Assembly (NCBI RefSeq): GCF_036511935.1
Contig: NZ_AP028878.1
Span: 1,674,001-1,738,000 of the forward strand
Origin: Marinobacter nanhaiticus D15-8W
GTDB taxonomy: Bacteria; Pseudomonadota; Gammaproteobacteria; Pseudomonadales; Oleiphilaceae
Reading direction: 5' to 3'
Length of the DNA stretch: 64,000 nt
Below are positions 2,371-40,464 of the stretch, piece by piece. Both the position numbers and the translations under genes were made by a program. Each line of letters opens with the position of its first letter. The first letter of the stretch is position 1. A model generated the notes under the pieces. That model saw nothing but the letters and a program-made list of their open reading frames with translations. It was not told the origin of the DNA and ran no database searches.

Positions 2371-3582
2371 TTGACTGAAAGTACATACAGTGAGTCTGAA
2401 AGGAGAGTGTTCGTCCCCCTGGACCAATGGAGTCTGCCCACGACATCCGTGCATCGCACCTTGCGGGACGCGATAAGCAGCTTTCTCGAGCGTGCCCGGC
2501 AGACGGCCTGGCTGGCGGAATCGGATGAGGAGGGAGGCGATGCGCTACGCCCGCTGTCCCGCCGCCAGTTGTCCCGATGGGCGCCGCCAGCGGATTGGCA
2601 GTCTGGGCTGGTGGGTATGACCGATGCCCTCGATAACTGGTGGGAGCGGTGGGGCACGGTCCAGACTGTGGCATTCCTGGTTGCGCCACCCTTTTCCGGT
2701 ATTGGAGAGTCCCTTGAGCAGCTGTGTAGGGAACGGGGCTGGCGCCTGATAGAACCACCGGATGATCGGGCTATTCACCGTACGGATGCCGTTAGCTGGT
2801 GGTCCCAGTTCGATGGCGAGACAACCTGGGTGCTGCCTGAATTGGGTCATTGCTGGTTGCGAACACCGGCCGGGCTCACATTGGTGCGACGCCTACTCGG
2901 CGCCATTGCGGCGGGCGAGTTGGGACAGGGTGTCATCGGCTGTTCCAGTTGGACCTGGCAGTTCTGGCGTCACTTGATGCCGGAGTTGCGCTTTTCGGTT
3001 ATGACCCCTCAAGCCTACGATCATGTTCGCTTGGGACGCTGGCTTGGTGATCTTGCCCAAGAACCCTCGTCACATTTTCGTCTTACCACCAATGGCAGTT
3101 GGGTGGTCCCGCCGAAGGCTGCCGGCGAGCAGCAAAACCACAAGACCAGCGCCTTCCTCCGGGACCTGGCCGCCTGGTCGAGAGGCATCCCTGAAGTGGC
3201 CTGGTCGACATGGCGCCAGGCTTTACGGGCTCAGCCGGAGGCTGAAGTGGTCGAAGGTACGGCAGGTACGACGCCGGTACGACATGAGTCTACCTGCTGG
3301 GTAGTGCCCTGGGATCAGCTCACCTTACCGTCCCTCCCCCCCGGTGAATCGCGTCCATTGGCTTTCGTGTTACATGCGTTGCTGATGCACCAGGGGCTCG
3401 ACGAAGAACACCTGCGCCAAACCACCGGCCTCGATCTGGACGATATCCATATTTCACTGCACTCCCTGCGCCGGGCCGAACTGGTCGAACCGCACCCGCG
3501 GGGCTGGTTCGTGACGGCCCGGGGCTACCCGGCCATAAGGCGCTACCTGCAGACGGAAGGCTTTGCCGTGGACGGTTTCTAG
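2371..3582 (+). CDS. Unknown protein with degenerate P-loop-like core and C-terminal winged-helix-like region
   Basis: I do not recognise this 403-residue protein. It is Trp-rich and soluble. Residues 105-114 (APPFSGIGES) look like a Walker A loop whose lysine has become Glu. Residues 153-164 (WVLPELGHCWLR) sit where a Walker B strand would be, and residues 188-199 form another hydrophobic strand. The last 70 residues read like a winged helix (HALLMHQGLDEEHLRQTTG, then RRAELVEP). The longest start is TTG at 2371. GTG at 2407 is also possible but has AAGGAG only one or two bases away. It ends 23 bases before the MscS gene, so the two may be co-transcribed. A dead AAA/STAND-like scaffold is an inference only. 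Confidence 0.6.
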   Translation: MTESTYSESERRVFVPLDQWSLPTTSVHRTLRDAISSFLERARQTAWLAESDEEGGDALRPLSRRQLSRWAPPADWQSGLVGMTDALDNWWERWGTVQTVAFLVAPPFSGIGESLEQLCRERGWRLIEPPDDRAIHRTDAVSWWSQFDGETTWVLPELGHCWLRTPAGLTLVRRLLGAIAAGELGQGVIGCSSWTWQFWRHLMPELRFSVMTPQAYDHVRLGRWLGDLAQEPSSHFRLTTNGSWVVPPKAAGEQQNHKTSAFLRDLAAWSRGIPEVAWSTWRQALRAQPEAEVVEGTAGTTPVRHESTCWVVPWDQLTLPSLPPGESRPLAFVLHALLMHQGLDEEHLRQTTGLDLDDIHISLHSLRRAELVEPHPRGWFVTARGYPAIRRYLQTEGFAVDGF

Positions 3583-4426: not shown

Positions 4427-5476
4427 ATGAAGGCGAATGTCTCCCTGCCCATCACCCTGCTGATCGCATCGGCACTCTCCGGTTGCGCCATTAATGGTAG
4501 CCAGCCCGGGGATCAGCCGTTACCCCTGAATCCGGGCACCTACGTATCGAGCGACGAGCGCCAGGTGTGGGTGTTCTGGGAAAATGGAATGTTCGAGCGG
4601 TCAGCGATCGGCGGAGAAGAAACTGAAAGCGGGGAACCTGGAAGCGCAAACGATGCCGCGCCGCAGCCGCAGTTTGACTGGGGCCAGTGGCATGACCTTA
4701 ACGGCATGGGCGTCGCTATCGCACGCGGGGGGCAGGCATCTCGTTATTTTCTGGACGTGGCGTCCGACGATACGGCAACGCTTAAGGGCTCAAGCGTTAC
4801 CGGTCCGGTGAACCTGGTTCGTGAAGACGATGTGGAACCTCTCGAGACGCCGCGTCCCATGGCCATCTGTTTTATGACGCAGGCCGATGCGCCGCTGGCT
4901 TACGAGCCGCTCACCCGCCGCAACTACCCGGTACAGATGGCAGAGGCCTACCCTCAGTTGGAAGCCGCTTATCTCGAGTCTGGTCTCCAGCCGCCTCAAC
5001 GATTGCCAATCCAGGTGAGTGGACACTGGGTGCTGGACGATGCGCCGGATGGTGTCGGTGACGTGCTTTTCCTGCGGGCCGCGAACCTCGAGGCGCTGGG
5101 AAAAGCCGGCGCAGGGATTTGTCCCCAGGTCGCGTTACAAGGGACATACTGGGTCCTGCGCAAGCTGGGAAACGAGCACATTGAGACAGACAGGGGCAAA
5201 CGTGCAATCCATGTTACCTTCGGCGCGGACGGTAAGGTCTCCGGTCTGGCGGGTTGTAACCGTTTCAGTGGGCCCTTCACTCGCAGCAAGGACGACTTGC
5301 AGTTGGGGCCGTTGGCCGCAACACGCATGATGTGTCCGGAACGGGCGGAAACCGAGAACGCGTTCTTTGTCGCGTTGGAACGGACCGAACGTTTTGCTAT
5401 CGAGGGCGAAACGCTGTTGTTGATGACGGACGACGGCAAGATATTGGCCGAATTCGAGGCCGGGGATCTGCAATAG
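4427..5476 (+). CDS. Lipoprotein with C-terminal META/HslJ-like domain
   Basis: The ATG at 4427 has AGGAG 6 bases upstream and starts a 349-residue protein with signal peptide and lipobox LSGC. The mature N-terminal part begins PLNPGTYVSSDERQVWVF, reminiscent of NlpE-like copper/envelope-stress lipoproteins, but the CxxC of NlpE is not evident. From about residue 235 a META domain is clear: GTYWVLRKLGNE, then the hallmark GLAGCNRFSGPF, and a final LLLMTDDGKILAEFE strand. META-domain lipoproteins are linked to heat or antibiotic stress in other bacteria. A longer in-frame extension upstream overlaps the mscS gene and is rejected. Confidence 0.82.
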   Translation: MKANVSLPITLLIASALSGCAINGSQPGDQPLPLNPGTYVSSDERQVWVFWENGMFERSAIGGEETESGEPGSANDAAPQPQFDWGQWHDLNGMGVAIARGGQASRYFLDVASDDTATLKGSSVTGPVNLVREDDVEPLETPRPMAICFMTQADAPLAYEPLTRRNYPVQMAEAYPQLEAAYLESGLQPPQRLPIQVSGHWVLDDAPDGVGDVLFLRAANLEALGKAGAGICPQVALQGTYWVLRKLGNEHIETDRGKRAIHVTFGADGKVSGLAGCNRFSGPFTRSKDDLQLGPLAATRMMCPERAETENAFFVALERTERFAIEGETLLLMTDDGKILAEFEAGDLQ

Positions 5477-5530
5477 CGTTTCGTTTAGATGGCTGGGGTT
5501 TTGCGCTGCCTCCAGGTGGAGGTGGAACGA

Positions 5531-5558
5531 AAAAAGGCGTGACCGAAGCCACGCCTTT
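5531..5558 (-). terminator. Rho-independent terminator for dctP
   Basis: A perfect 9-bp stem AAAGGCGTG / CACGCCTTT with an 8-base loop lies just past the dctP stop. On the minus strand it is followed by a run of T residues (the A-run at 5530-5535 on plus), so it terminates dctP. Plus-strand activity for the lipoprotein gene is weaker. Confidence 0.8.
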
Positions 5559-5578
5559 CATGCAGTAAAACGGAGGGA

Positions 5579-6727
5579 TTACTGCTGCTCAGAGCCCGAG
5601 CCAGAACCTGAATCAGACCCGGAACCGCCTTCTTTCTCTTTAACCATGGAGGTTACGGTGTCCAGCAGCTTCTGACCGTTCTCGCCAGCCTGCTCGACGT
5701 AGGTGTCGCGAACACCCATGCTGGCTTCGCGGAAGGCCTGGCGCTCCTCGTCGCTCAGCGTAATTACTTCGGTGTCGCTGTTATTCTTGATTTTCTCCAG
5801 ACGCTCCTGGTTGAACTGCGCCTGCTTCTCGTAGATGAAGTCGACCATCTCGTCACGTGTTTCGTCTACCCACTGACGCTGATCATCCGGCAGGTTCGCG
5901 TACCACTCGTCGTTAGCAATAACGGTGGCGATAAACTGCGCGTGCTTGGCAATGATCATATAGTCCTGAACTTCATAGAAGCTCATTTCTTCGATGGCGA
6001 AGATCGGGTTCACCTGACCTTCGATCTGCTTCAGCTGCAGACCGCTGTAGACTTCGGAGTAGGGCATCGGCGTCGGGTTGGCGCCATAAGCCTCGTACGA
6101 CTGGGTCAGGATCGGGGAGGTCATCGTGCGAATCTTGAAGTCGTTAAAGTCCGCCGGAGTACGCAGCGGCTTGTTGGCGGTCCAGACCATCCAGCCTTCG
6201 GGCACGATGCTCAGCAACTGGAGGTTCTGCTCCGCATACCGCGGTGCCAGGATGTCGTGTACCTCTGAACTGGACAGGACTTCCTTGTTCACATCGTTGT
6301 CGTCAGAAAGCACGAAATGCAGGGTGAAGATACCCACTTCCGGAATCACTGACGCAAGGTGCCCTGGAGAAGCGAACGCCAGCTCAACTGCTTTTTGCTG
6401 GACCAGTTCGGTCAGCTGGGATGACGTACCCAGGGACCCGTAGGGATAGACCTCGATCTTGATCTGACCGTTGGATTTCTCTTCGATGCGCTTCTTGAAT
6501 TCCTGCGCATAGGCGTCCTGGACACTGCCTTCGATTTCTTCCAGTGCAAAGCGCCAGGTCACCGTTTCGCCGCTCTTTTCTGCGGTTTCGGAGGACGAGC
6601 CTGAAGATTCCTGTTGTTGGGTGTTGGCATCCTGATTCGCGCTGTCGTCGCCTGAATCCGAGCATCCGACCAGAACGAATGTCATCAGAAGGGTCAGGCT
6701 TCCCAGCCAGCGGATGAGTGTTCTCAT
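5579..6727 (-). CDS. dctP: TRAP transporter solute-binding lipoprotein (DctP family)
   Basis: The 382-residue protein has a lipobox (FVLVGC), a Ser/Gln-rich linker, then a DctP fold: VTWRFALEEIEGSVQDAYAQEF, YPYGSLGTSSQLTELVQQ, and the ligand-helix region KIRTMTSPILTQSYEAYGA with PMPYSEVYSGLQLKQIEGQ. It should bind an organic acid in the periplasm and hand it to DctQM. AAGGAG lies 8 bases before the ATG. The last 20 residues are a Gly/Ser/Asp-rich low-complexity tail. It is divergent from dctQM, which is less common than the usual co-directional dctPQM order. The substrate cannot be told from sequence. Confidence 0.9.
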   Translation of the reverse strand: MRTLIRWLGSLTLLMTFVLVGCSDSGDDSANQDANTQQQESSGSSSETAEKSGETVTWRFALEEIEGSVQDAYAQEFKKRIEEKSNGQIKIEVYPYGSLGTSSQLTELVQQKAVELAFASPGHLASVIPEVGIFTLHFVLSDDNDVNKEVLSSSEVHDILAPRYAEQNLQLLSIVPEGWMVWTANKPLRTPADFNDFKIRTMTSPILTQSYEAYGANPTPMPYSEVYSGLQLKQIEGQVNPIFAIEEMSFYEVQDYMIIAKHAQFIATVIANDEWYANLPDDQRQWVDETRDEMVDFIYEKQAQFNQERLEKIKNNSDTEVITLSDEERQAFREASMGVRDTYVEQAGENGQKLLDTVTSMVKEKEGGSGSDSGSGSGSEQQ

Positions 6728-6856
6728 GTGCTTTTCTCCTTTGAGTTCTAACCAACTTCTCTAAGATAACATACTATCAAATAGACATATTTCTTGAAGT
6801 TTGCCATCCATTACAACGTATACTGTATTTATCTGAAAAGAAAATGGAGCGAAACC

Positions 6857-7540
6857 ATGGCATCATCCACGGGCGCATCCGATGGCCCAAATAAGGGACA
6901 GGGACAGGGAAAGAAAAAGAAAGGTGGGCCCTTTCACATGCTTGATACCGGCCTCAACGTTGTTGAGCAGGGTATTCTCATCGTCGGCATACTGGTGATG
7001 GCGGCAACCAGTATCATCGGCGTCTTCGCCAGGAACATGGGGCACAGCCTGTCATTCGTCGACGAGCTGGCTCAGTTACTCGTGGTGATCGTGACTTTCG
7101 TGGGGGTTGGTCACGGCGTCCGAAACGCCCGCCATATCCGGGTTTCCGCGCTCCATGACATGCTTCCGGACAAAGGGCAGAAAATATTGCTGACCTTCGT
7201 CAGCTTTTTCTCATGCGCGTTGTTGGCCCTGCTGGCCTACTATTCCATCGAATACATCCAGAACCTCCAGAAGTCTGGTCGGGTAATGCCCTCCATGCAG
7301 TTGCCCTTATGGATTCCCTATCTCATCGTACCTGTCGGTCTGATCGTCGGTTCGGCGCAGTTCTTCCTTGCAGGCGTACGCAACATCATTAGCAAGGGCG
7401 CCTGGCTGTCATGGCATAACCGGGACGAGTACGAGGATGAACTGGCCGCCGAGGCGGGCATCTCCACTGAAGAGCAGGCGTATTACGAAAGCGAGAGTGC
7501 GCCGAAGGAAGCCGGTGGAAAGGAGAAGTCCAATGGATAA
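6857..7540 (+). CDS. dctQ: TRAP transporter small permease (DctQ family)
   Basis: The ATG at 6857 with GGAG 8 bases upstream gives a 227-residue protein with four hydrophobic helices (for example GILIVGILVMAATSIIGVFA and LLTFVSFFSCALLALLAYY), typical of DctQ. It associates with the large permease in the inner membrane. A hydrophilic N-terminus of Gly/Gln/Lys repeats (GQGQGKKKKGG) and an acidic C-terminal tail extend beyond the usual core. A longer reading from 6794 lacks a ribosome site. Its stop overlaps the dctM start by 8 bases, so the two are translationally coupled. Confidence 0.9.
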   Translation: MASSTGASDGPNKGQGQGKKKKGGPFHMLDTGLNVVEQGILIVGILVMAATSIIGVFARNMGHSLSFVDELAQLLVVIVTFVGVGHGVRNARHIRVSALHDMLPDKGQKILLTFVSFFSCALLALLAYYSIEYIQNLQKSGRVMPSMQLPLWIPYLIVPVGLIVGSAQFFLAGVRNIISKGAWLSWHNRDEYEDELAAEAGISTEEQAYYESESAPKEAGGKEKSNG

Positions 7541-22607: not shown

Positions 22608-23177
22608 TTGGAGAACATTCTTTACGATGGCTGGCAGGGACTGGCTCGAATCCTGATTGTTGGCATACTCGCATACATCAGCCTGATCCTGTGCCTGCGT
22701 ATTTCAGGTAAACGTACGCTAGCGAAGATGAATGCGTTTGACTTGGTTGTCACGGTCTCCCTCGGGTCGACCCTTGCCTCGATCATTCTGAGCGATGGTG
22801 TTGCTCTGGCAGAGGGTGTTGGCGCGTTCGTGCTCTTAATAACCCTGCAGTTCGTTGTGACCTGGTCGAGTGTGCGCATCCGGTGGGTCAGGCAGATAGT
22901 GACGGGCGAACCTCAACTGCTTCTTCACGGCGGCCATTTTGTTTCGGCGGCTTTGCGCCGTGCCCGGGTCACGAAAAGTGAGGTACGCGCGGCCGTCAGG
23001 TCAGCGGGGATCAGCGATCTGAACGCGGTCCAGGCCGTTGTCTTGGAGACAGACGGCTCGTTCAGTGTTGTTCGAGGTGCAGATCGTCCGGAGAACTCCA
23101 GCCTGGTCGACGTCCGCGGTATGGAAGCCCGTGATCACGTGGTTAGTCCTGCAGCGACGGCGAGGCGCGAGAATTAA
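22608..23177 (+). CDS. DUF421 membrane protein (YetF/YcaP-like)
   Basis: The start is TTG at 22608, supported by AGGAGGGG five bases upstream. The 189 residues have three N-terminal membrane helices (for example LARILIVGILAYISLILCL) and the DUF421 signature RISGKRTLAKMNAFDLVVTVSLGS, followed by a cytoplasmic domain with GEPQLLLHGG and AVVLETDGSFSVV. The family is of unknown function and common in envelope-stress or sporulation settings elsewhere. About 240 non-coding bases precede it; the DUF2243 gene follows. Confidence 0.88.
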   Translation: MENILYDGWQGLARILIVGILAYISLILCLRISGKRTLAKMNAFDLVVTVSLGSTLASIILSDGVALAEGVGAFVLLITLQFVVTWSSVRIRWVRQIVTGEPQLLLHGGHFVSAALRRARVTKSEVRAAVRSAGISDLNAVQAVVLETDGSFSVVRGADRPENSSLVDVRGMEARDHVVSPAATARREN

Positions 23178-30959: not shown

Positions 30960-31979
30960 TCAGGGAAAATTCGGGTGCGCCGCCAAGTGGGTGCCAAGTT
31001 CTTCCAGGTCGCTCTCGGCGTGGCACTGGCGAATGTAAAGCTGAAGCTCCGTCGTCCGCCGTGCGTTCACCTCATCGAAGGCAAAGGGACGCGGCCCCAA
31101 TGCACGTCCGAAGCGATCGAGGACTTCGGTACAGTTGCGTTCAATGAGATGGCGCACCAGCAACGCCGTCGCAAACATATGGCCCTGTTCATTGGCGGGA
31201 TCCGTGTCTATCCGCGTTGCACCCCATTCCAGCATTGCCACGTTGCTCTGGCTGGCTGCGACTATCGCTCCCAGGTGGGCTTTCGCGTGACCGCCCTTCA
31301 AGGTTCTCTGGCGTACGTGGTCGACCAGGCCGCTCGCCCCGCCCGCCCAGCATGCGGCCGGCGCCAGGGTGCCGAGACAGAAACCGGGCCGTTCGAAGTA
31401 CCACTTTTGCTCGCCGACTTTCTGTTCTGGCCCAATCGGTAGCTGATCAAAGGTGACCGTCCAGGTATGGGTTTCGGAAAACGCCTGTGCTTTCCATTGC
31501 CCCCTTTCGAAGCGGAGCCGATGTTCCGCCGAGGCGGCTTGCATATCGACGTCCACCAGTTGCTCGTTGGGATAGACATAGACCAGGGCGCGGTCAACGA
31601 TGTCAGAACCACTGCAGAATGGTTTGCTACCTGAAAGCGCGTCTCGCGCGCCTATGGCCTCCGATTGCATGAAGTGCGTGGTATCGTCCGGTCCTCCGGA
31701 AGCCCAGACCCCATAGAGTGCCCCGGGTTCCGCTGTGCGTTCGGCCTCGTGGAGAATCTGCGTGGCGTCGAGATGGCCTTCCAGTATGCGGGCGAGGCCC
31801 AGATCGCGCCTTGCGACCTCGATAAGGAATTGAAGGCGCGCCAGGCTACGGCCCTCTCCCATGGGGGGAACATGGGCCTGGATATAGGGCAATAGTGCCC
31901 GGGCCAGGTTCCGGTATTGTTTGGCAGTGGGGGAGCCTGGCAGATCTGAGAGCAGGCCGTGGAGTTCGGAATCGTCCAT
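30960..31979 (-). CDS. Acyl-CoA dehydrogenase-like protein, last gene of six-gene glycosyl operon
   Basis: The 339-residue protein is shorter than catalytic acyl-CoA dehydrogenases (about 380) but has their middle domain pattern (YGVWASGG, then LSGSKPFCSGSDIVDRALVYV) and a helical C-terminal domain with HAKAHLGAIVAASQS. The usual catalytic Glu cannot be placed with confidence, so it may use FAD differently or be inactive. It starts two bases after the methyltransferase stop, and the six genes form one transcript. It probably oxidises an acyl or other intermediate of the pathway. Alternative: a structural partner. Confidence 0.75.
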   Translation of the reverse strand: MDDSELHGLLSDLPGSPTAKQYRNLARALLPYIQAHVPPMGEGRSLARLQFLIEVARRDLGLARILEGHLDATQILHEAERTAEPGALYGVWASGGPDDTTHFMQSEAIGARDALSGSKPFCSGSDIVDRALVYVYPNEQLVDVDMQAASAEHRLRFERGQWKAQAFSETHTWTVTFDQLPIGPEQKVGEQKWYFERPGFCLGTLAPAACWAGGASGLVDHVRQRTLKGGHAKAHLGAIVAASQSNVAMLEWGATRIDTDPANEQGHMFATALLVRHLIERNCTEVLDRFGRALGPRPFAFDEVNARRTTELQLYIRQCHAESDLEELGTHLAAHPNFP

Positions 31980-31981
31980 GG

Positions 31982-32584
31982 TTACCCCTCCGGCTTGGTC
32001 CAGCGTTTTAGGGCGTAGCCCGGATTGCTGATGTCGAAGTCATCGGGTACGCGGATCACCTGGTCCATCGTTGCGTGCACCTCGGATCCGTGGAGGCGAT
32101 GGTCCGCGGAGAATCCCAGCCAATGGCAGGCAATCAACCGCCCGCCCGGTTCCAGGCGCGTCCATAACCGGGCCACAAGCAGTGCGAGTTCGTCCGGGGT
32201 GAAGTAGTAGCCCAGCTCCGAGAAGACAATCAGGTCAAAGGTTTGCCCGGGAAGGTCGCCTGGCAGGTTGCCCTCGTGCACTTCCACATGGTCGAAACCG
32301 CTGCAGCGACGCTTTGCGCTCTCGATGGCGGCTGCAGAACAGTCCATGGCAATCAACGAATCACAATGCGGTGCGAGCAAGGCGGTCAACTCGCCAATGG
32401 CGCAGGCCGGTTCAAAGGCCGCTGCGTATTGACGGTCGCTGATGCCGTCGACGATATCGCTATAGCGATAGCGTTCGTAGGCGGAGTTACGGAAATCCCA
32501 GGGGTCTTCGGACTGACGGTACAAGCTCTCGAAGAATTCAGGCGACGTATCCGGGGAGGAATCAAAGGTATGGGATGTTCTCAT
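31982..32584 (-). CDS. NodS-like SAM-dependent methyltransferase
   Basis: The start at 32584 overlaps the GT2 stop (ATGA), which rules out the longer frame to 32728. The 200 residues show the NodS family opening FFESLYRQSEDPWDFRNSAYER (read in halves) and the SAM-binding AFEPACAIGELTALLAPHC, with IAMDCSAAAIE and the later LIVFSELGYYF. NodS methylates the amine of a deacetylated chitooligosaccharide during Nod-factor synthesis. With a deacetylase (PIG-L) in the same operon, an N-methylated amino sugar is a tempting but unproven product. Confidence 0.85.
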   Translation of the reverse strand: MRTSHTFDSSPDTSPEFFESLYRQSEDPWDFRNSAYERYRYSDIVDGISDRQYAAAFEPACAIGELTALLAPHCDSLIAMDCSAAAIESAKRRCSGFDHVEVHEGNLPGDLPGQTFDLIVFSELGYYFTPDELALLVARLWTRLEPGGRLIACHWLGFSADHRLHGSEVHATMDQVIRVPDDFDISNPGYALKRWTKPEG

Positions 32585-33486
32585 GCGAAGGCAATCTCCG
32601 GTCCTTGGCGAGAGGCTTCTACCTCTTGCGGTGTTGGGCGTCTTAAAATCTCGATCCTGTCGGCATCCAGTGCCCATCGAACGAGGCCGTAGCGGGCGAA
32701 GTAGTCCAGCCAGTATTCGAGACACCAACTGCCCCAGGTGGCACGAAAACGGGTGGCGTTCTCGATAATGTCGTCGAATCTATCCAGCGGCGGTGTATAC
32801 ACCGTGTGGTATTGGTGCAGGGCCAGGGCATCTGAGCACCAGGCTAGCCGTGTGCCGTTTGCGGCCAATCGCTCGGCAAAGTCGGTTTCTTCGCCGCCAT
32901 AACCGACGTAGAGTTCGTCCATGCCGCCAGCGCTGAAGTATTGGTCCTTGGTCAGGGCGAACGAAAGCCCCCAGAGTGCCCGGTGTTCGGGTTCGTCGAT
33001 CCAGCCATCGCTCTCCAGGCTGGGGCGGGCTGGGTGCTGCACGGCAAAGCCGGCCAAATCGGCAAAGGTGCTCGCCTTGATATCTTCGGTGGAGCAGGTG
33101 CCCGGGAGATAGCGAACCTCGCCAAGCAGGCAACGGCCGGATGCATCGAGCTGGCGGATATACTGGCCCACCAGCTCGGGGCCCGGTATGCAGTCCACGT
33201 CGAGGAAGATCAGCCGCTCGGTATCTGCCGCCCGTGCAGCCGCGTTCCTGGCCGCGGCCAGGGGCATTCTCTCGCCCGGAACAGTGACGACCCTGACCGG
33301 GAACGGGACCTCGGCTGATATCCGCGGGGGTTCAGGCTGCATGCTCGCGATGATCAACTCGAAGGCCGGCTCCGTCTGCCTGGTCAGGCCGTCTATCAGC
33401 GCGTCGAGGTGGGCCTGGCGGCCCCGAACCAGTGTGAGCACGCTGGCTTTAGTGCCACGTGCCCCGGTATCTGTGTTGGACGTCAT
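32581..33486 (-). CDS. Family 2 glycosyltransferase with Glyco_transf_7C-like C-terminus
   Basis: From the ATG at 33486, which overlaps the upstream glycosyltransferase stop by four bases, the 301-residue protein has a GT-A fold: SVLTLVRGRQAHLDALIDGL, LPLAAARNAAARAAD, and the metal-binding FLDVDCIPG (DxD-like). The motif GMDELYVGYGGEETDFAERL matches the galactosyltransferase C-terminal domain. A frame reaching 33606 lies inside the neighbour and is rejected. It transfers a sugar from a nucleotide donor, acceptor unknown. Predicted cytoplasmic. Confidence 0.87.
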   Translation of the reverse strand: MTSNTDTGARGTKASVLTLVRGRQAHLDALIDGLTRQTEPAFELIIASMQPEPPRISAEVPFPVRVVTVPGERMPLAAARNAAARAADTERLIFLDVDCIPGPELVGQYIRQLDASGRCLLGEVRYLPGTCSTEDIKASTFADLAGFAVQHPARPSLESDGWIDEPEHRALWGLSFALTKDQYFSAGGMDELYVGYGGEETDFAERLAANGTRLAWCSDALALHQYHTVYTPPLDRFDDIIENATRFRATWGSWCLEYWLDYFARYGLVRWALDADRIEILRRPTPQEVEASRQGPEIAFA

Positions 33487-34724
33487 TCGGGGTCCTGCAC
33501 GGTTTCTTCGTACTCGCCGGGGGACAGGGCGGCGGACGCCGGAATGGCCCGATAGAGGCCCGGATGCTGATCTTCCGACAGTTCGTCGGGACGGCTGTCG
33601 AGCCATAGGTCGCGTATCAAACCTTCCAGATAGTCACCTGCGCGGCGTGCAGCATGCTCATCGACCAGTTGGCGTTGGCCCTCGATGTCGCAGGTGTTGG
33701 CCTGGTCGACCAGGCGTCGCCACTGGGCGAAACTGGCGGGCCAGGTCGGCGAATAGGCTGCGTAGTTCCGGGCGGCCAGGGCCTCGGCCTTACAGGCCTG
33801 TTCGTCGTAGTAGCACCATTCGGGAATACAGATCAGCGGCCGGCCCACCCGGGCAATTTCGTGGGTCAGGGTGTCACCTGGCGTGGCAATGACGACATCC
33901 GCGGCGGCCAGGTAATCGTTGACGTTGTCGACCCAGCCTACATCGATCACGTTGGAGAAATCCGTTTCGTGGCCGTAGCGCACGGTTTTACCGACCGTAA
34001 GCCAGAGTGCATCGGGATAGGCCCGCGCCGCCAGGGTTACAGGCGCGATCGGAATGCCGGCGCCACCGTTGCCGGCGACGACGACGAAGATTTGCTGATC
34101 TTGCGAAAGCCCCAGGCGTTCCCGTGCTTCGGATCGGTCTGGAACTGACTCACGGGTATCGATCAGCCCGCCGGTATAGAACGTGCGCTTGCGCAGGTGA
34201 GGTGGCCAATCCGCTTGTTCCAGCGCTTCGTCGTAGGGGGCCAGCATCGCCGCGCATGCCGAATAAGCGGCTTGGTGGGCCTGGTCTTCGCGGTCCCCGT
34301 GCATGCGGACTTTAACCACCGGTACGCTGCAGATGCGTCCCAGCAGCGCCAGCTCGGCTGAAACGTCCACCACGAACAGGGCAGGATCTTCACTGGCAAG
34401 CCAAGAGGCGATGATGCCGCCGGTCCCGCGAATGGCGGACACGCCTACGGGGGCGCAATCCAGCGCCACGCAGGCAGGTTGGTTGTGCAACTGTTCCGAG
34501 CGCGCCTGCTTTCCATGGAAATCCGGTATCCGGACGATCTCGGCGTTATCCGGCGGGTCCGGGAAGATCTCCGGTTTGGCACAAAAGATGGTCACCGGCC
34601 GAGGGGCCAACTGCTGGGTGATGGCCAGACAGCGTTTGGCGTGACCATGGCCATGGTGGTGTACGAAGTAACCCACAGGCCGCTGGGAGAACGTGTTGTC
34701 GGGGAGAACGTGATGTGACGTCAT
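33483..34724 (-). CDS. GT-B fold glycosyltransferase (MurG/GT28-like)
   Basis: The start at 34724, one base after the upstream stop, gives 413 residues beginning MTSHHVLPDNTF and then GYFVHHHGHGHAKRCLAI, the His/Gly-rich opening of this glycosyltransferase group. The C-terminal donor-binding half has VVAGNGGAGIPIA, and near residues 270-290 AAADVVIATPGDTLTHEIARVGRPLICIP (split here). GT-B enzymes use nucleotide sugars. It sits between the sucrose-phosphate-synthase-like fusion and the GT2 gene, with ATGA coupling to the latter. Donor and acceptor unknown. Confidence 0.82.
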   Translation of the reverse strand: MTSHHVLPDNTFSQRPVGYFVHHHGHGHAKRCLAITQQLAPRPVTIFCAKPEIFPDPPDNAEIVRIPDFHGKQARSEQLHNQPACVALDCAPVGVSAIRGTGGIIASWLASEDPALFVVDVSAELALLGRICSVPVVKVRMHGDREDQAHQAAYSACAAMLAPYDEALEQADWPPHLRKRTFYTGGLIDTRESVPDRSEARERLGLSQDQQIFVVVAGNGGAGIPIAPVTLAARAYPDALWLTVGKTVRYGHETDFSNVIDVGWVDNVNDYLAAADVVIATPGDTLTHEIARVGRPLICIPEWCYYDEQACKAEALAARNYAAYSPTWPASFAQWRRLVDQANTCDIEGQRQLVDEHAARRAGDYLEGLIRDLWLDSRPDELSEDQHPGLYRAIPASAALSPGEYEETVQDPE

Positions 34725-34725
34725 G

Positions 34726-36981
34726 TTATGCACCTGCCTCCATACCCGCTGCGTTTCCATTGATGTCGATTTCAAGCGGCGTATGGCGTTGATTGTTGTC
34801 GTTGAGTTGGCGTCCCGTAGACGTGTCGACGGAGTTCAGGCCTTCCAGAATGCCGGCGGCGCAGGATGAGCGGGCCCAGAAAATGTGTTCGTAGCCCTTC
34901 AGGTCGTTAAGCTCACCGCTATGGTTCGCCACGACGATCCCCAATGCGGCGTAACGGAGCATGTCCTCGTCATTGCCGGAATCTCCTGCGGCGACAACCC
35001 GGCGGCGGGCTATTCCCGCATGCTGGCGGATAAAGTCCACGGCCCGGGCCTTGCCGCTCGCTACCGGGAGGATATCCAGCAAGTGGCCATGGGAATGGAC
35101 AACCCGCGCTTCCAGACCTGCACCTGCCAGGCACTGCTTCGCTTTGACGATGAGGCTATCTTTGGACGCGCCTGAGTCATCTGTGAAATAGCTCAGTTTG
35201 TAGGCTGACTGCGTGTGTGCTGGCTGTAGCCGGAGCCCTGGTAACGGGCTAAGTACCTGCTCGCATGCGCGCCTGTCCCAATCCTGATCGAGTTTGTCTT
35301 GCCAGGCCTGGACCGGGTGGGGGCGGCCTTGGGGATCGATCCGGTAGATTGACGACCCCACGTCCGCGATCAGGAAATCGGGCAGCGGAGCGGACCAGGC
35401 GTTAAGCTCACCAAGTGCCTCATCTACAGCGCGGCCCGTGGCGACGACAAACAGGCATTCTCGGTTTTGCGCCAGCCACTGCTTGAGGCGTTCCAGGCCT
35501 CGATGGTCGCCAAGAAGTGTGCCATCCATGTCGGAAGCGAGGATCCGAGTGGGGCGCTCGTGTCCGAGGACGGGGAGCGAATCCCGCGTCACCAGCCCCG
35601 TTTCCATCACATATTGCCGGGCATGCCGGGACCAGCTGTAGAACGCGACATTTTTGCGCCCGCGGGCGCTCAGACGCTGCCAGCCGACATCATCGAACAG
35701 GATTTGCCGGCAGCCCTCAGCAATGGCCCTGGTATCGGTCGGCGGAACCACGAGACCATGCCCGCAACGACGGACGATATCGATGGGGCCGCCTTCCTGT
35801 GTGGCCACGACCGGGAGGCCGGCAGCAGCCGCTTCGAGCAGGGTCAGTCCGAATGGCTCGTTGAGCGCCGGGTTTACGAAAACACCCTTGCGTTGCGCCG
35901 CCCATTGATAGATTGCGGGAATCTGACGGAGTTCGTGCTGCTTCGGGTAGGCGACGTGGCCGTAAAGATCGTAGTCGTCGATCAGCTGCAGCATCTCGAG
36001 CCAGACCTGCTGGGCCTCGGGTTCACAGGCTTCGATCCGGGAACGGGTACCAGCGATAAGGACGAGATTGGCCTTCTGCCGTAACTCCGGGTTTTCGCCG
36101 TAGGCTTTGATCAATGCCTTCAGGTTCTTTTTCGCGACCGGACGCGCTATGGCCAGGAGGCACGGCAACTCGGGCTCGCGCAGGAAGCGCTTAAGCAGGG
36201 TATCCACCTCGTGGGTCGTACTTTGAGGCGCCGGTCGACTGAAATTCTGCAGGTCACAGCCGGGCGGATTGACCTTCGTCCGGTTTAGGTCGTGGCAACG
36301 GTAAAGTCCGTACTGGAACTTTGCCTCGTGCTCGGAGCTGGCAATCATGCTGGACGCACCGCGCACGGCCAGCTCCTCGTAACGGATGCGACGCCTTAGG
36401 GTCCTGCTGATTGGCTTGTCCGGAGACGCATGCTGTAGCTTTGACGCCCCCAGTGAATGGGCAGTGAACACGTAAGGTATGCCCAATCTGCGTTTGAGCT
36501 GGTAGGCCATGATGCCCGCATCGGCATAATGGGCATGTACCAGGTCAGGGCGGATGCCTTGCTCGCGCATACGGTCCACCAAGGCTTCCGTCAGCGCCGG
36601 TAGCTCGCTCCAGAGTGCTTCCTTGGCAAGGTAGTCGCTGGTCTGGCCCGGGCAGCGCCAGAGCGTGACGTTGGGCCCCAGGGACTCTTCCGCGGCGGTG
36701 TACTCGGCACCCAGCTTGGGATCGTCGAAAGCTCGGGTAACGATGATCTGGTGCTCGACTTCGGGCCTTCGCGACAGAGCCTCGACCAGTTCGAGCAGGT
36801 AGCGGATGTGGCCTCCGGTGTCGGCGGTCAGGCCGTAGGGGATGTCGCCCCCCCGCAAACATCCCTGCAGTGCGATGTGCATGACCACGCCGGATCGGGA
36901 GCCTGGCGCCTTGCTGTCCGTCAGTATGTCGTTGTCAGAAAGATCCAAGAAGGGATGGGCTCTGGTGATGTCCTTGTCCAT
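34726..36981 (-). CDS. Sucrose-phosphate-synthase-like glycosyltransferase (GT4) fused to HAD-IIB phosphatase
   Basis: The 751-residue protein has two parts. Residues 30-480 form a GT4 enzyme: LTADTGGHIRYLLELVEAL, HAHYADAGIMAYQLKRRLG, HSLGASKLQH, and the donor-site NEPFGLTLLEAAAAGLPVVAT with its EX7E pair. Residues 490-720 form a HAD-IIB phosphatase: ASDMDGTLL, VVATGRAVDEAL and AAGDSGNDEDML. This is the sucrose-phosphate synthase plus sucrose-phosphatase layout. A mannosylfructose-type disaccharide is also possible. It lies in an operon with other glycosyltransferases, so the product could be a solute or a precursor. Confidence 0.88.
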   Translation of the reverse strand: MDKDITRAHPFLDLSDNDILTDSKAPGSRSGVVMHIALQGCLRGGDIPYGLTADTGGHIRYLLELVEALSRRPEVEHQIIVTRAFDDPKLGAEYTAAEESLGPNVTLWRCPGQTSDYLAKEALWSELPALTEALVDRMREQGIRPDLVHAHYADAGIMAYQLKRRLGIPYVFTAHSLGASKLQHASPDKPISRTLRRRIRYEELAVRGASSMIASSEHEAKFQYGLYRCHDLNRTKVNPPGCDLQNFSRPAPQSTTHEVDTLLKRFLREPELPCLLAIARPVAKKNLKALIKAYGENPELRQKANLVLIAGTRSRIEACEPEAQQVWLEMLQLIDDYDLYGHVAYPKQHELRQIPAIYQWAAQRKGVFVNPALNEPFGLTLLEAAAAGLPVVATQEGGPIDIVRRCGHGLVVPPTDTRAIAEGCRQILFDDVGWQRLSARGRKNVAFYSWSRHARQYVMETGLVTRDSLPVLGHERPTRILASDMDGTLLGDHRGLERLKQWLAQNRECLFVVATGRAVDEALGELNAWSAPLPDFLIADVGSSIYRIDPQGRPHPVQAWQDKLDQDWDRRACEQVLSPLPGLRLQPAHTQSAYKLSYFTDDSGASKDSLIVKAKQCLAGAGLEARVVHSHGHLLDILPVASGKARAVDFIRQHAGIARRRVVAAGDSGNDEDMLRYAALGIVVANHSGELNDLKGYEHIFWARSSCAAGILEGLNSVDTSTGRQLNDNNQRHTPLEIDINGNAAGMEAGA

Positions 36982-37048
36982 ATCGTTCCTTGTCCATGCT
37001 GCGCCGCAGGTCCTCTTTCAACGCGGTGAACATCACAATCTGCGCGTT

Positions 37049-37834
37049 TTATATACTCCATGCGGGTAGGTCGCGAACTAACGCGTAAATTTCCTGGTTT
37101 TTGAGCTTTTCCTCCAACAGCACCGCCGGCATCTGAAAGCCCTCGCGTTGAGCGGTCTTCAATCCACCGAGCTGTGACTGATGTTCGTGTACGGCATTTC
37201 GCTTCAACGACAGAAGGTCGCGGATGTCATGTCGGTATGGCTGTTCATTCGCCTCGACGTGCGTTGGCCGTTGCTCCGGCGGCCAGATTTGGTAGCTGAA
37301 CACGTACTCGACGGGGCATTGCCCGAGCACTTCCGCCATGAGCCGGGCGGTTTCACGATGGTCGTTGTGACAGTCATCGACCGCGGGTACGAAAACGCTT
37401 CGAACAGCACGGGATTGCAGGGTGTCCCGGATCAGCTCGACGATGCGGTCGCGCATCTGGCCGGTGATCTTATCCAGATGTCCATCCGGTAATTCCAGCG
37501 CGAGAACATCCGGCCGTTCCAATCCAAGCGTTTTTAACGCATTTCGCTGCTCGCGTTTGCGAATCGTAGCCAGTTCGCGACGCCATACCCGATTGCCAGG
37601 GTGCGATGCGTCGCCGCTGGTCATGGCCAGTACAGTCACCGGTATCGACAAGTCGGCACAACGGGCGATCAGGCCACCGCACCCCAGCGACTCATCGTCC
37701 GGGTGTGGCGATGCGACAAGGACCGGCCCCAGGTCTTCAATGGCAATAGCATTCAATGCGTCATCGACGAGTACGGGTCTGGTCTGGGAGAAGTTCGAGC
37801 ATGATGCGCTATCCACGCATGCGATCTGGTTCAT
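37049..37834 (-). CDS. PIG-L family deacetylase, first gene of the glycosyl operon
   Basis: The ATG at 37834 is chosen because AGGAGG stands 11 bases upstream; a frame to 37888 has no ribosome site. The 261 residues contain the PIG-L metal and catalytic motif ASPHPDDESLGCGGL and a later metal-binding PAVDDCHNDHRETARLM. Family enzymes (MshB, BshB, PIG-L) deacetylate N-acetylglucosamine linked to another group. As the leading gene, 67 bases ahead of the SPS-like gene, it suggests an acetylamino sugar in the product. Cytoplasmic. Confidence 0.88.
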   Translation of the reverse strand: MNQIACVDSASCSNFSQTRPVLVDDALNAIAIEDLGPVLVASPHPDDESLGCGGLIARCADLSIPVTVLAMTSGDASHPGNRVWRRELATIRKREQRNALKTLGLERPDVLALELPDGHLDKITGQMRDRIVELIRDTLQSRAVRSVFVPAVDDCHNDHRETARLMAEVLGQCPVEYVFSYQIWPPEQRPTHVEANEQPYRHDIRDLLSLKRNAVHEHQSQLGGLKTAQREGFQMPAVLLEEKLKNQEIYALVRDLPAWSI

Positions 37835-38064: not shown

Positions 38065-38865
38065 TCAAGGCTCGGGTTGGCACCTGGGACAGATATAAGC
38101 AGAGCGACCGCTGGCCTTGATCTTGCGGAGGGCACTTTTACATCGTGGGCAGGGCTCGCCCTCGTGTCGGCGTGGAAGGATAAACCAGTCGGGCATGCGG
38201 TCCTGGTCGGCGTTGGCATCCAAATCGGCCTTCAGCACCCTGTGCATTGTCTCGTAGAGTTTTCGATACTGCTCGTGATCCAGTGCCCTGAGTTCTGCGC
38301 TGGGGTGCCAACGTGCCTGGAACAGGATCTCGTCACTGGTTTCATTACCAAGGCCACTCAGGTGTTTCTGGTTCATCAGAAAGGATTTCAGACCGCCCCG
38401 TGCCTTGCGGGCAATGTCTACAAACTCGTCTTTTCCCAGTTCCAGAGCATCCGGCCCAAGCTTTCGTCCCTGGCCATAGTGCTCGGGGTCGTCGATAAGG
38501 CGGATGTGCCCGAGCTTCCGTCGAGAGTTGAAAGCTAGTGCGTACTCGTTATCGAAGAAAAAACGAACAGCGTCGTAGGCAGCGTCAGGACTCTTGTCCA
38601 AGCTGTCTTTACAGCCGTACCGGGGGCGGCTGGTCATACCGAAGTGCAACGCGAGCCATTGGCCGCTGTCGAGGGCGAGAAAGAGATGCTTCCCCCATCG
38701 GTAGCTTTTGGTAAAGGTATGGCCGGAAACCGCTTGGGCCAGTTTACGCTTGCTGAGATCGCCAAGGACCTTGGGCGCCGGAACCGTCACGCGACGTATG
38801 GATTGGTGAAGGGCAGTGGAATCGATGTACCGTTTGAATGCTTCGACGTCAGGCAGTTCGGGCAT
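38065..38865 (-). CDS. Fpg/Nei-family DNA glycosylase
   Basis: The protein (266 residues from the ATG at 38865) begins MPELPDVEAF, so Pro2 and Glu3, the catalytic N-terminus, are present once Met is removed. It has the lysine-bearing YRWGKHLFLAL, the helix-two-turn-helix LSGLGNETSDEILFQA, and a C-terminal zinc finger with CPRCK and CPRCQ. It excises oxidised bases. A frame extending to 38922 would block the required Pro N-terminus and is rejected. It lies near a catalase, a fitting neighbour. Fpg or Nei subtype is not certain. Confidence 0.92.
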   Translation of the reverse strand: MPELPDVEAFKRYIDSTALHQSIRRVTVPAPKVLGDLSKRKLAQAVSGHTFTKSYRWGKHLFLALDSGQWLALHFGMTSRPRYGCKDSLDKSPDAAYDAVRFFFDNEYALAFNSRRKLGHIRLIDDPEHYGQGRKLGPDALELGKDEFVDIARKARGGLKSFLMNQKHLSGLGNETSDEILFQARWHPSAELRALDHEQYRKLYETMHRVLKADLDANADQDRMPDWFILPRRHEGEPCPRCKSALRKIKASGRSAYICPRCQPEP

Positions 38866-38942
38866 GGCTGACCCTCCTTGCAGTTTGTCGTCTGGAAATG
38901 GCATTGGGAGCCATTCTTCCACATCTTGATACGACGAACCAA

Positions 38943-39009: not shown

Positions 39010-40464
39010 TTACATGCCTTCTTTCACGCCTTTCTCAATCCGGGCACCGATTTCCGGGTCGATGTTCTTCCAATACTCGAAGACGCGAGACAGCACGGGC
39101 TCCTTGACGCCCCCGGACACATGGCCGACGACGTTGCTGACCAGCCGATCACGAGCGGCCTGGTCCATGACCTTGTTGATCATGTCGCGGGCCTGGCTGT
39201 AATCGTCGTCGCCTTCCCGCAGGGTGTAGGCGGCGCGGACCATGTCTCCACTGGTATGCCAGGTGGAATCGGTCGGATAGCGCTCGCCATCGGCGGATGG
39301 GCCACCCTTGGAGTTGGGCGCATAGACCGGATCAGAGACCTTGTTGATCCGCATGGCGCCGTCCTTGCTGTAACTGTGCACCGGCGCGACAGGCTGGTTG
39401 ACCGGAATCTGCTTGTAGTTGACCCCAAGGCGAGCCCGGTGCGCATCCGCATAGGAGAAGACACGGCCGATCAGCATCTTGTCCGGACTGATCCCGATCC
39501 CGGGTACGAGATTGTTCGGCTCGAAGGCCGCCTGCTCGATCTCGGCATGGTAGTCAGTCGGATTCCGGTCCAGGGTCAGCTTGCCGACCTTGATCAGCGG
39601 ATAGTCACCGTGCGGCCAGACCTTGGTCAGGTCGAACGGATTGATGCGATAGGTTTCCGCGTCCTTGAACGGCATGATCTGCATATACAGCGTCCAGCTC
39701 GGATATTCGCCACGCTCGATGGACTCATACAGGTCGCGGGTGTGGTAGTCGTTGTCCTCACCACAGATGCGATCGGCGTCCTCCTGGGTCAGGCACTCAA
39801 TGCCCTGGTCGGTCTTGAAGTGGTACTTGACCCAGAATTTTTCGCCCTCGGCGTTGGTCCACATGTAGGTGTGGCTGGAGTAGCCATTCATATGGCGCCA
39901 CGTCTTGGGAATGCCACGATCCCCCATCAGCCACGTCACCTGGTGCGCAGATTCCGGGGATAGGGTCCAGAAATCCCACTGCATGTCGTGGTCACGCAAG
40001 TGGTTGTCGGCGCGGCGTTTCTGGGAGCGGATGAAGTGCTGGAACTTCATCGGATCACGAACGAAGAAGACCGGCGTGTTATTGCCGACCATGTCGTAGT
40101 TGCCTTCGCTGGTATAGAACTTGATCGAAAAACCGCGCGGGTCGCGCCACGTATCGGGGCTGCCGCGTTCGCCTGCCACTGTTGAGAAGCGAATCACCAC
40201 ATCGGTCTTGGTACCGGGCTGGAATACGGCCGCCTTCGTGTACTTGCTGACGTCTTCGGTAACTTCGAAGTGGCCGAAGGCACCACCGCCCTTGGCGTGA
40301 GGCTGGCGCTCGGGAATGCGTTCCCGGTTGAAGTTGGCCATTTGTTCGATCAGGTAATGATCGTGCAACAGTAGGGGGCCGTCCGGGCCGATGGAGAGCG
40401 AGTGCTCGTCGCTTGCTACCGGTATACCGGCATCGGTCGTTGTCGGTTTGTTATTACTGCTCAT
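39010..40464 (-). CDS. Clade 3 small-subunit heme catalase
   Basis: The 484-residue enzyme has the small-subunit length. It shows the catalytic His region [33 protein letters not shown], the Asn-bearing [10 protein letters not shown], and the heme-ligand Tyr in [14 protein letters not shown]. It lacks the extra C-terminal flavodoxin-like domain of HPII-type large catalases. It degrades hydrogen peroxide in the cytoplasm. GGGAG precedes the ATG. An Fpg/Nei gene follows and a hairpin ends it. The symbol katA would suit but is not certain. Confidence 0.95.

Follow-up and report, generated by a model that had tools for sequence, protein, structure and literature searches.

The stretch of DNA analyzed here, called the window, is 64,000 nucleotides in length and comes from Marinobacter nanhaiticus D15-8W (contig NZ_AP028878.1, positions 1,674,001 to 1,738,000), whose genome is 5.4 Mb in size (G000 below). 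Six open reading frames (ORFs) lie on the minus strand of the window at positions 30960-37834, and the closest named proteins of this operon are from Marinobacter. The six genes are listed in order of transcription, with the modules A and B defined further below:

37049..37834, minus strand: PIG-L family de-N-acetylase, 261 amino acids (PF02585)
34726..36981, minus strand: fusion of an SPS-like GT4 domain and a HAD sucrose-6-phosphate-phosphatase-like domain (SPS-HAD), 751 amino acids; module B
33483..34724, minus strand: GT-B glycosyltransferase, 413 amino acids; marker gene of module B
32581..33486, minus strand: GT2 glycosyltransferase with a galactosyltransferase-type C domain, 301 amino acids; module B
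31982..32584, minus strand: NodS-like S-adenosylmethionine (SAM) methyltransferase, 200 amino acids; module A
30960..31979, minus strand: protein of the acyl-CoA dehydrogenase (ACAD) fold without the dehydrogenase glutamate, 339 amino acids; marker gene of module A

With the likeliest starts, consecutive genes are separated by 67, 1, -4, -4, and 2 bases. The same strand and spacing had been claimed in an earlier reading of this DNA from its letters alone (the sequence-only reading), and the ORF coordinates bear this out. Judged from related loci, the six genes are a conserved set and more than a chance gene order, because the order SPS, GT-B, GT2, methyltransferase, ACAD is kept on one strand in six of six Marinobacter-type loci (the window, L004, L005, L006, L007, and L125; L126 is the L006 locus again). 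At most junctions in these loci, the genes overlap slightly or are only a few bases apart. PIG-L comes first in five of the six, and is located ~7 kb from SPS in L006 (genome G026). The window genome, G026, and G003 (which carries L125) each have PIG-L in single copy, with the operon's own match the only one. A sigma-70 scan of the operon region gave no promoters, as compared to 1.9 expected, and six terminators, as compared to 7.2 expected, and is uninformative. The distribution of the operon is patchy, with the ACAD-like gene occurring in two of six genomes of the genus and in three of 58 relatives.

The A1 profile, which represents the ACAD-like family, identified 68 loci in named genomes and further loci in other genomes, among which two modules recur. 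Loci read in seven phyla carry module A, which consists of the ACAD-fold protein, PIG-L, the NodS-like methyltransferase, and usually a short GT2. Module B consists of SPS-HAD, GT-B, and a GT2 that differs from the short GT2 of module A. Within 5 kb of the ACAD-like gene, a methyltransferase was found at 91, PIG-L at 84, and the short GT2 at 79 of 94 loci (111 minus 17 having <3.5 kb on one side of the ACAD ORF). These loci are not independent, as about one third are from Cellulomonas relatives, and L006 and L126, being one locus, are counted twice in the locus counts; the window, L005, and L125 are scored as lacking PIG-L, which lies just beyond 5 kb in each. Locus counts rest on profile matches to all ORFs, and gene calls in the flanks on a simple ORF and codon-bias rule that leaves some starts overlong and misses some genes. 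The order within module A is ACAD-PIGL-MT-GT2 (MT, methyltransferase) in Pseudomonas-type and Acinetobacter loci, PIGL-MT-GT2-ACAD in most Acidobacteriota, and ACAD, a PIGL-MT fusion, and then GT2 in Cellulomonas. Verrucomicrobiota and Myxococcota contribute one module A locus apiece, Cyanobacteriota are represented by Nostoc, and Deinococcota by Deinococcus radiodurans, in which PIG-L follows the ACAD-like gene and a helicase gene intervenes before the methyltransferase. Module B genes are adjacent, sometimes on mixed strands, in Kushneria-, Methylobacterium-, Sphingomonas-, and Sulfitobacter-type loci.

We have little doubt that these conserved modules are real. The gene-neighborhood search proposed in the sequence-only reading does recover a conserved set, albeit one that is not a single unit everywhere; the Marinobacter operon is instead a fusion of two wider modules and is not peculiar to the window genome. 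Novosphingobium pSA2 and L143 likewise have genes of both modules mixed on one strand. The short GT2 of module A had no match in the window genome, in a search that had no positive control, and the GT2 of module B may therefore replace it there. As a whole explanation, we favor a fusion of two conserved modules belonging to one stress-linked, cytoplasmic pathway for an amino-sugar oligosaccharide, to which we assign a probability of about 0.48.

The pairing of the modules was evaluated in one draw of 398 genomes, with limits of E<=1e-15 for the ACAD-like protein and E<1e-50 for GT-B. The ACAD-like gene occurred in 33 genomes, GT-B in 16, and both in 15 (Fisher p 2.7e-17), and the 16 GT-B genomes are spread over 10 families. 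It weighs against the favored explanation that GT-B copies located close to ACAD-like genes were used to make the GT-B profile; upon removal of G000, G504, and G548, which each contributed their GT-B to it, both genes occur in 12 of 13. The GT-B limit was chosen post hoc, at a gap from 1.5e-54 to 6.3e-22, and none of the 19 weaker matches (down to 1e-8), which were taken for other families, is in a genome with an ACAD-like gene. All eight genomes with an SPS match above 840 bits have both the ACAD-like gene and GT-B, while 10 of the 31 genomes with SPS at >=680 bits have the ACAD-like gene. Seven of the 15 ACAD-like/GT-B pairs are within ~10 kb, and the other eight are on different contigs or >0.2 Mb apart, among which breaks between draft contigs could mask linkage.

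Two separate stress products could also account for such a pattern, with module B making a sucrose-like glycoside, module A modifying something unrelated, and the two being co-inherited or co-regulated. Of the 33 genomes with module A, 18 lack module B, and the modules are unlinked in eight of the 15 genomes that share them, as would be expected for two products. However, module B is almost always accompanied by module A (15 of 16, with one exception), and Marinobacter interleaves both modules in one overlapping operon. Genes of both are also mixed on one strand in pSA2 and L143. The missing short-GT2 match in the window genome, subject to the same lack of a positive control, also suggests that the GT2 of module B can substitute for it. 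We consider two products rather unlikely, and on balance lean toward modules A and B serving one product where both occur.

The A/B pairing appears from the sequences to have been gained or lost several times, because module B presence takes five changes on a tree of 57 ACAD-like proteins, at least four of which are forced by well-supported branches; these changes may be gains or losses, and 20 rows of unknown module B state are uncounted. Label shuffles on the tree show clustering of the label only, and were not used as support. Marinobacter sides with Acidobacteriota and several Actinomycetota (94/86, 93/96, 88/85, and 94/88), although its exact neighbor is weakly placed (84/67). As it is placed apart from genes of the Pseudomonas and Kushneria types, which belong to the same order, horizontal transfer of the ACAD-like gene of Marinobacter is suggested.

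Mannosylfructose-phosphate synthase is an osmolyte enzyme of the SPS/SPP type. The SPS-HAD fusion resembles the enzymes of sucrose and mannosylfructose osmolyte synthesis in combining a GT4 with a HAD phosphatase (GT4 and S6PP in Pfam; PF05116, 3.3e-60), and in keeping the catalytic His and Glu and the phosphate positions. The catalytic H158 and E331 of TeSPS correspond to H175 and E375 of SPS-HAD, and the phosphate contacts R105 and R178 correspond to K120, a conservative substitution, and R198. Roles in catalysis for His158 and Glu331, and in binding the phosphate of sucrose-6-phosphate for Arg105 and Arg178, are described in the available portion of PMC7264703. Unlike SPS/SPP, the operon protein is below the equivalog cutoffs and mostly lies beside GT-B and GT2 partners: it scores 455.3 bits with the SPS equivalog-domain model TIGR02472 (cutoff 576) and 180.2 bits with the SPP-like equivalog-domain model TIGR02471 (cutoff 209.75). 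The description "SPS-like" thus holds for the catalytic and phosphate-binding residues and does not extend to equivalog status. GT-B has a sub-threshold Pfam match to GT28-C (20.8 vs. 22 bits). GT2 matches the Pfam families GT2 and Glyco_transf_7C, and the closest structural match to its model is residues 148-414 of the K4 chondroitin polymerase (K4CP), that is, the first glycosyltransferase domain; galactosyl, rhamnosyl, and fucosyl transferases are also among the structural matches. The sugar donor of GT2 is not readable from sequence, and its model makes an N-acetylhexosaminyl transferase possible.

PIG-L enzymes have catalytic motifs of the PHPDDE and HxxH types. The operon PIG-L is a member of this family (PF02585, 2.5e-25, 89.9 bits with a cutoff of 28.2) in which both motifs, PHPDDE and HNDH, are intact, and its nearest solved relatives include diacetylchitobiose deacetylases. 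Its closest NCBIfam model is BshB1 (TIGR04001), at 66.1 bits. Together with a match of the GT4 part of SPS-HAD to MshA (106 bits), this brings to mind the GT4 and PIG-L pair of bacillithiol and mycothiol synthesis, and a parallel pathway for a low-molecular-weight thiol or redox cofactor would account for the link to catalase described below. We rate such a pathway as highly improbable, because these scores are far below the model cutoffs (182.5 bits for BshB1 and 462.5 bits for MshA). The six genes also include no ligase, and the SPS residues point to a sugar-phosphate acceptor.

The methyltransferase belongs to the Pfam NodS family (PF05401, 1.6e-15, 57.9 vs. 24 bits), but is well under the cutoff of the NodS equivalog (NF041650 of NCBIfam, 62.2 vs. 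300 bits), such that "NodS-like" is apt for the family and not for NodS itself. Its nearest solved structure, 4isc, is titled just Methyltransferase. In Nod-factor synthesis, an amino sugar is deacetylated and then N-methylated. The operon resembles this decoration pathway in methyltransferase family and in the logic of deacetylation followed by N-methylation, and differs from it in having PIG-L in place of NodB and nothing NodA-like among the six genes. The retained SPS residues, the GT2 model, and the intact PIG-L fit the succession of sugar assembly, de-N-acetylation, and N-methylation that the sequence-only reading had put forward, which we find plausible.

A GT2 and a deacetylase also act in turn in the synthesis of hopanoid glucosamine, and the substrate that gave PIG-L its name is a glycolipid. 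These precedents raise the possibility of an amino sugar on a lipid carrier or membrane lipid, with the ACAD-like protein acting on the lipid part, as does an enoyl-CoA hydratase gene that follows the operon in the window. This hydratase gene is not kept, however, with the next gene being on the opposite strand in L004, L005, L006, L007, and L125. By hydropathy, none of the six proteins has a strong membrane segment (the 19-residue mean peaks at 1.68 in GT-B and is <=1.44 in the other five), which agrees with the intracellular product that had been proposed, and no acyltransferase or carrier is present among the six genes by Pfam families. The ACAD-like family also lacks the dehydrogenase Glu. 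We regard a glycolipid as unlikely.

Acyl-CoA dehydrogenases have their catalytic Glu at a C-terminal (LEGT) site or at a second, helix-G site. The ACAD-like protein is the sole member of the operon without a Pfam match, and a PF02770 match at E<=0.01 was found in five of 24 members of its family. Its AlphaFold2 model (AF2; predicted local distance difference test score, pLDDT, 94.1) has the ACAD fold. In an alignment of the family, the two Glu columns, the second of which is at residue 203, are occupied by Gln in 23 of 24 and by Gly in 23 of 24 members (one gap). Among aligned paralogs, 18 of 19 have one Glu, located in the first column in 10 and in the second in eight. The Foldseek list for the model is headed by the flavin monooxygenases MsuC, DszC/TdsC, DnmZ, and KijD3, and amino-sugar N-oxygenases (nitrososynthases) are present among its neighbors; VIA-align did not separate flavin monooxygenases from dehydrogenases. 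Because of the Gln and Gly at the Glu columns and the predominance of flavin monooxygenases at the head of the Foldseek list, dehydrogenase activity is unlikely for this protein, and acyl-CoA dehydrogenation was dropped as its leading function. The designation "acyl-CoA dehydrogenase-like" is correct for the fold and probably misleading for the activity.

Group D flavin monooxygenases, including nitrososynthases, have the ACAD fold and use reduced flavin from a separate reductase, according to the part of PMC5481743 available to us. The ACAD-like protein resembles members of this group (DnmZ, KijD3, DszC, and XiaF) in its fold and in having no dehydrogenase Glu. Unlike them, it has 339 amino acids and a shortened middle segment, and no flavin reductase was seen in the operon or among the annotated genes. 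N-oxidation by this protein is a tentative assignment. In a separate observation, the ACAD-like protein of Deinococcus radiodurans (L215, 8786-15190) is annotated as a 779-amino acid product, and may carry an extra fused domain.

The sequence-only reading had left unused the neighboring genes, namely those for catalase, trehalose-type enzymes, YetF, and Ku. Three such features of the window provide context:

38065..38922, minus strand: Fpg/Nei-family DNA glycosylase (Pfam), upstream of the operon, between it and catalase
39010..40464, minus strand: catalase (PF00199, 4e-190)
22608-23177: YetF (DUF421), ~8 kb from the operon

In L125, the Fpg/Nei glycosylase is absent between catalase and PIG-L, and catalase is the next gene before PIG-L on the same strand. 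In the fetched flanks, 38 of 110 loci with an ACAD-like match carry one or more of nine stress-type genes: catalase in 18, YetF in 11, TreY-type, GlgX-type, OtsA, and DUF2383 in five each, OtsB in four, and DUF892 and Ku in three each. The names GlgX and TreY are our presumption for alpha-amylase-family genes, made from gene order. In a whole-genome control of 36 genomes, catalase and the ACAD-like gene lay no more than 10 kb apart in six, as compared to 0.33 expected (P 1.3e-6, or 3.7e-4 with the three Marinobacteraceae counted once), and OtsA was equally close in three, as compared to 0.14 expected (P 4e-4). Catalase and OtsA were picked for this control after having been sighted near some of these loci, and the counts of six and three were tallied by hand from match positions.

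Some of the trehalose-type genes abut module A. In L128 and L149, the closest possible ACAD start comes one base after a glgX-type gene; in L140 and L157, it comes 16 and 34 bases after otsA, respectively. On a mobilizable plasmid of Acinetobacter johnsonii (L216, 2438-15795), catalase, YetF, an iron-containing redox enzyme, module A, and OtsAB occur together; the ACAD-like protein matches 56 records of the plasmid collection, 19 of them from Acinetobacter, and some are chromosome-sized. In Novosphingobium pSA2, catalase is followed on one strand by the mixed module genes, and in Bradyrhizobium, ACAD, PIG-L, and the methyltransferase are near Ku and LigD. Just one of 43 actinomycetotal loci has any stress-type neighbor, and the link is therefore not universal. 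Outside Actinomycetota, module A is probably part of stress programs.

EcfG is associated with the promoter pattern GGAAC-N16-17-[CT]GTT. Across 21 alphaproteobacterial loci, this motif had 12 matches, as compared to 6.7 expected from mononucleotide shuffles, with no clear enrichment; one match is upstream of ACAD (L205). In Sphingomonas sp. R1 (L217, 6998-13041), module B has the order HAD/SPS, GT-B, galactosyltransferase-related GT2, GT, and pyruvyl transferase. The last of these (L217, 12130-13041) hints at a pyruvylated product in that organism. In the available part of a study of Sphingomonas melonis Fr1 (PMC6599016), genes #3506-3509 are among the top EcfG-dependent genes (log2 -3.3 to -4.3) and bear the labels predicted glycosyl transferase, predicted glycosyltransferases, glycosyltransferase, and exopolysaccharide biosynthesis protein, while the promoter of #3505 was confirmed with lacZ and termed a putative indirect EcfG target. 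The likeness of #3505-3509 to R1 module B (SPS, GT-B, GT2, GT, pyruvyl transferase) is in the order of labels only, and that part of the study gives no product.

The pyruvyl transferase of R1, which is of the polysaccharide type, and the several consecutive glycosyltransferases might be taken to mark a fragment of a conventional locus for capsule or exopolysaccharide synthesis. Against this, no flippase, polymerase, or exporter was found in the six genes and ten annotated flanking genes, which include an MFS protein and an HlyD-like protein. An SPP-type phosphatase fused to the glycosyltransferase and a link to catalase and trehalose-type genes are also at odds with such a locus, which we consider improbable.

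Returning to the single amino-sugar oligosaccharide pathway, from the gene set and order, the intact motifs, the co-occurrence, and the neighbors, all of which were computed, we infer which reactions occur and in what order, what product results, and that it is protective. With fructose-6-phosphate or an analogous sugar phosphate as acceptor and a nucleotide sugar as donor, SPS-HAD would form the glycosidic bond and then strip the phosphate, yielding a non-reducing disaccharide core. GT-B would add a further sugar and GT2 an N-acetylhexosamine, from which PIG-L would remove the acetyl group. The free amine would be methylated by the NodS-like enzyme, and the ACAD-fold protein, assumed to be a flavoprotein, would oxidize the product, perhaps at nitrogen. 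The most likely product is a cytoplasmic, N-methylated, and possibly N-oxidized amino-sugar oligosaccharide. In lineages with module A only, the short GT2 would carry out the N-acetylhexosamine transfer on another core, perhaps trehalose, the genes for which adjoin module A in some lineages. A broader and more speculative proposal, which we hold to be rather unlikely as stated, is a class of stress metabolites having a non-reducing disaccharide (trehalose- or sucrose-like) joined to an N-methylated, N-oxidized hexosamine, distributed over at least seven phyla and an Acinetobacter plasmid; here, the core on which module A acts would come either from trehalose enzymes or from module B.

The sequence-only reading named no described pathway for this gene set, and a literature search limited to open-licence papers, in which absence is weak evidence, likewise gave no description of it. 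Unexplained sugar genes sit in the stress regulons of many bacteria. If one protective amino-sugar glycoside is made by the pathway above, many such genes would acquire a testable product, the "acyl-CoA dehydrogenase" label would be wrong for the ACAD-like family in many genomes, and the product would be a new compatible-solute-like compound. The siting beside catalase and trehalose genes, including on the plasmid, suggests a transferable survival trait.

Two further features were observed near module A. Locus L128 has an additional PIG-L gene after module A (6111-6869), and a similar match occurs in L127 and L149. In L147 (~5200-7500), repeated translations of the GSSPRVRGT/FIPAGAGNT type near module A resemble a CRISPR array.

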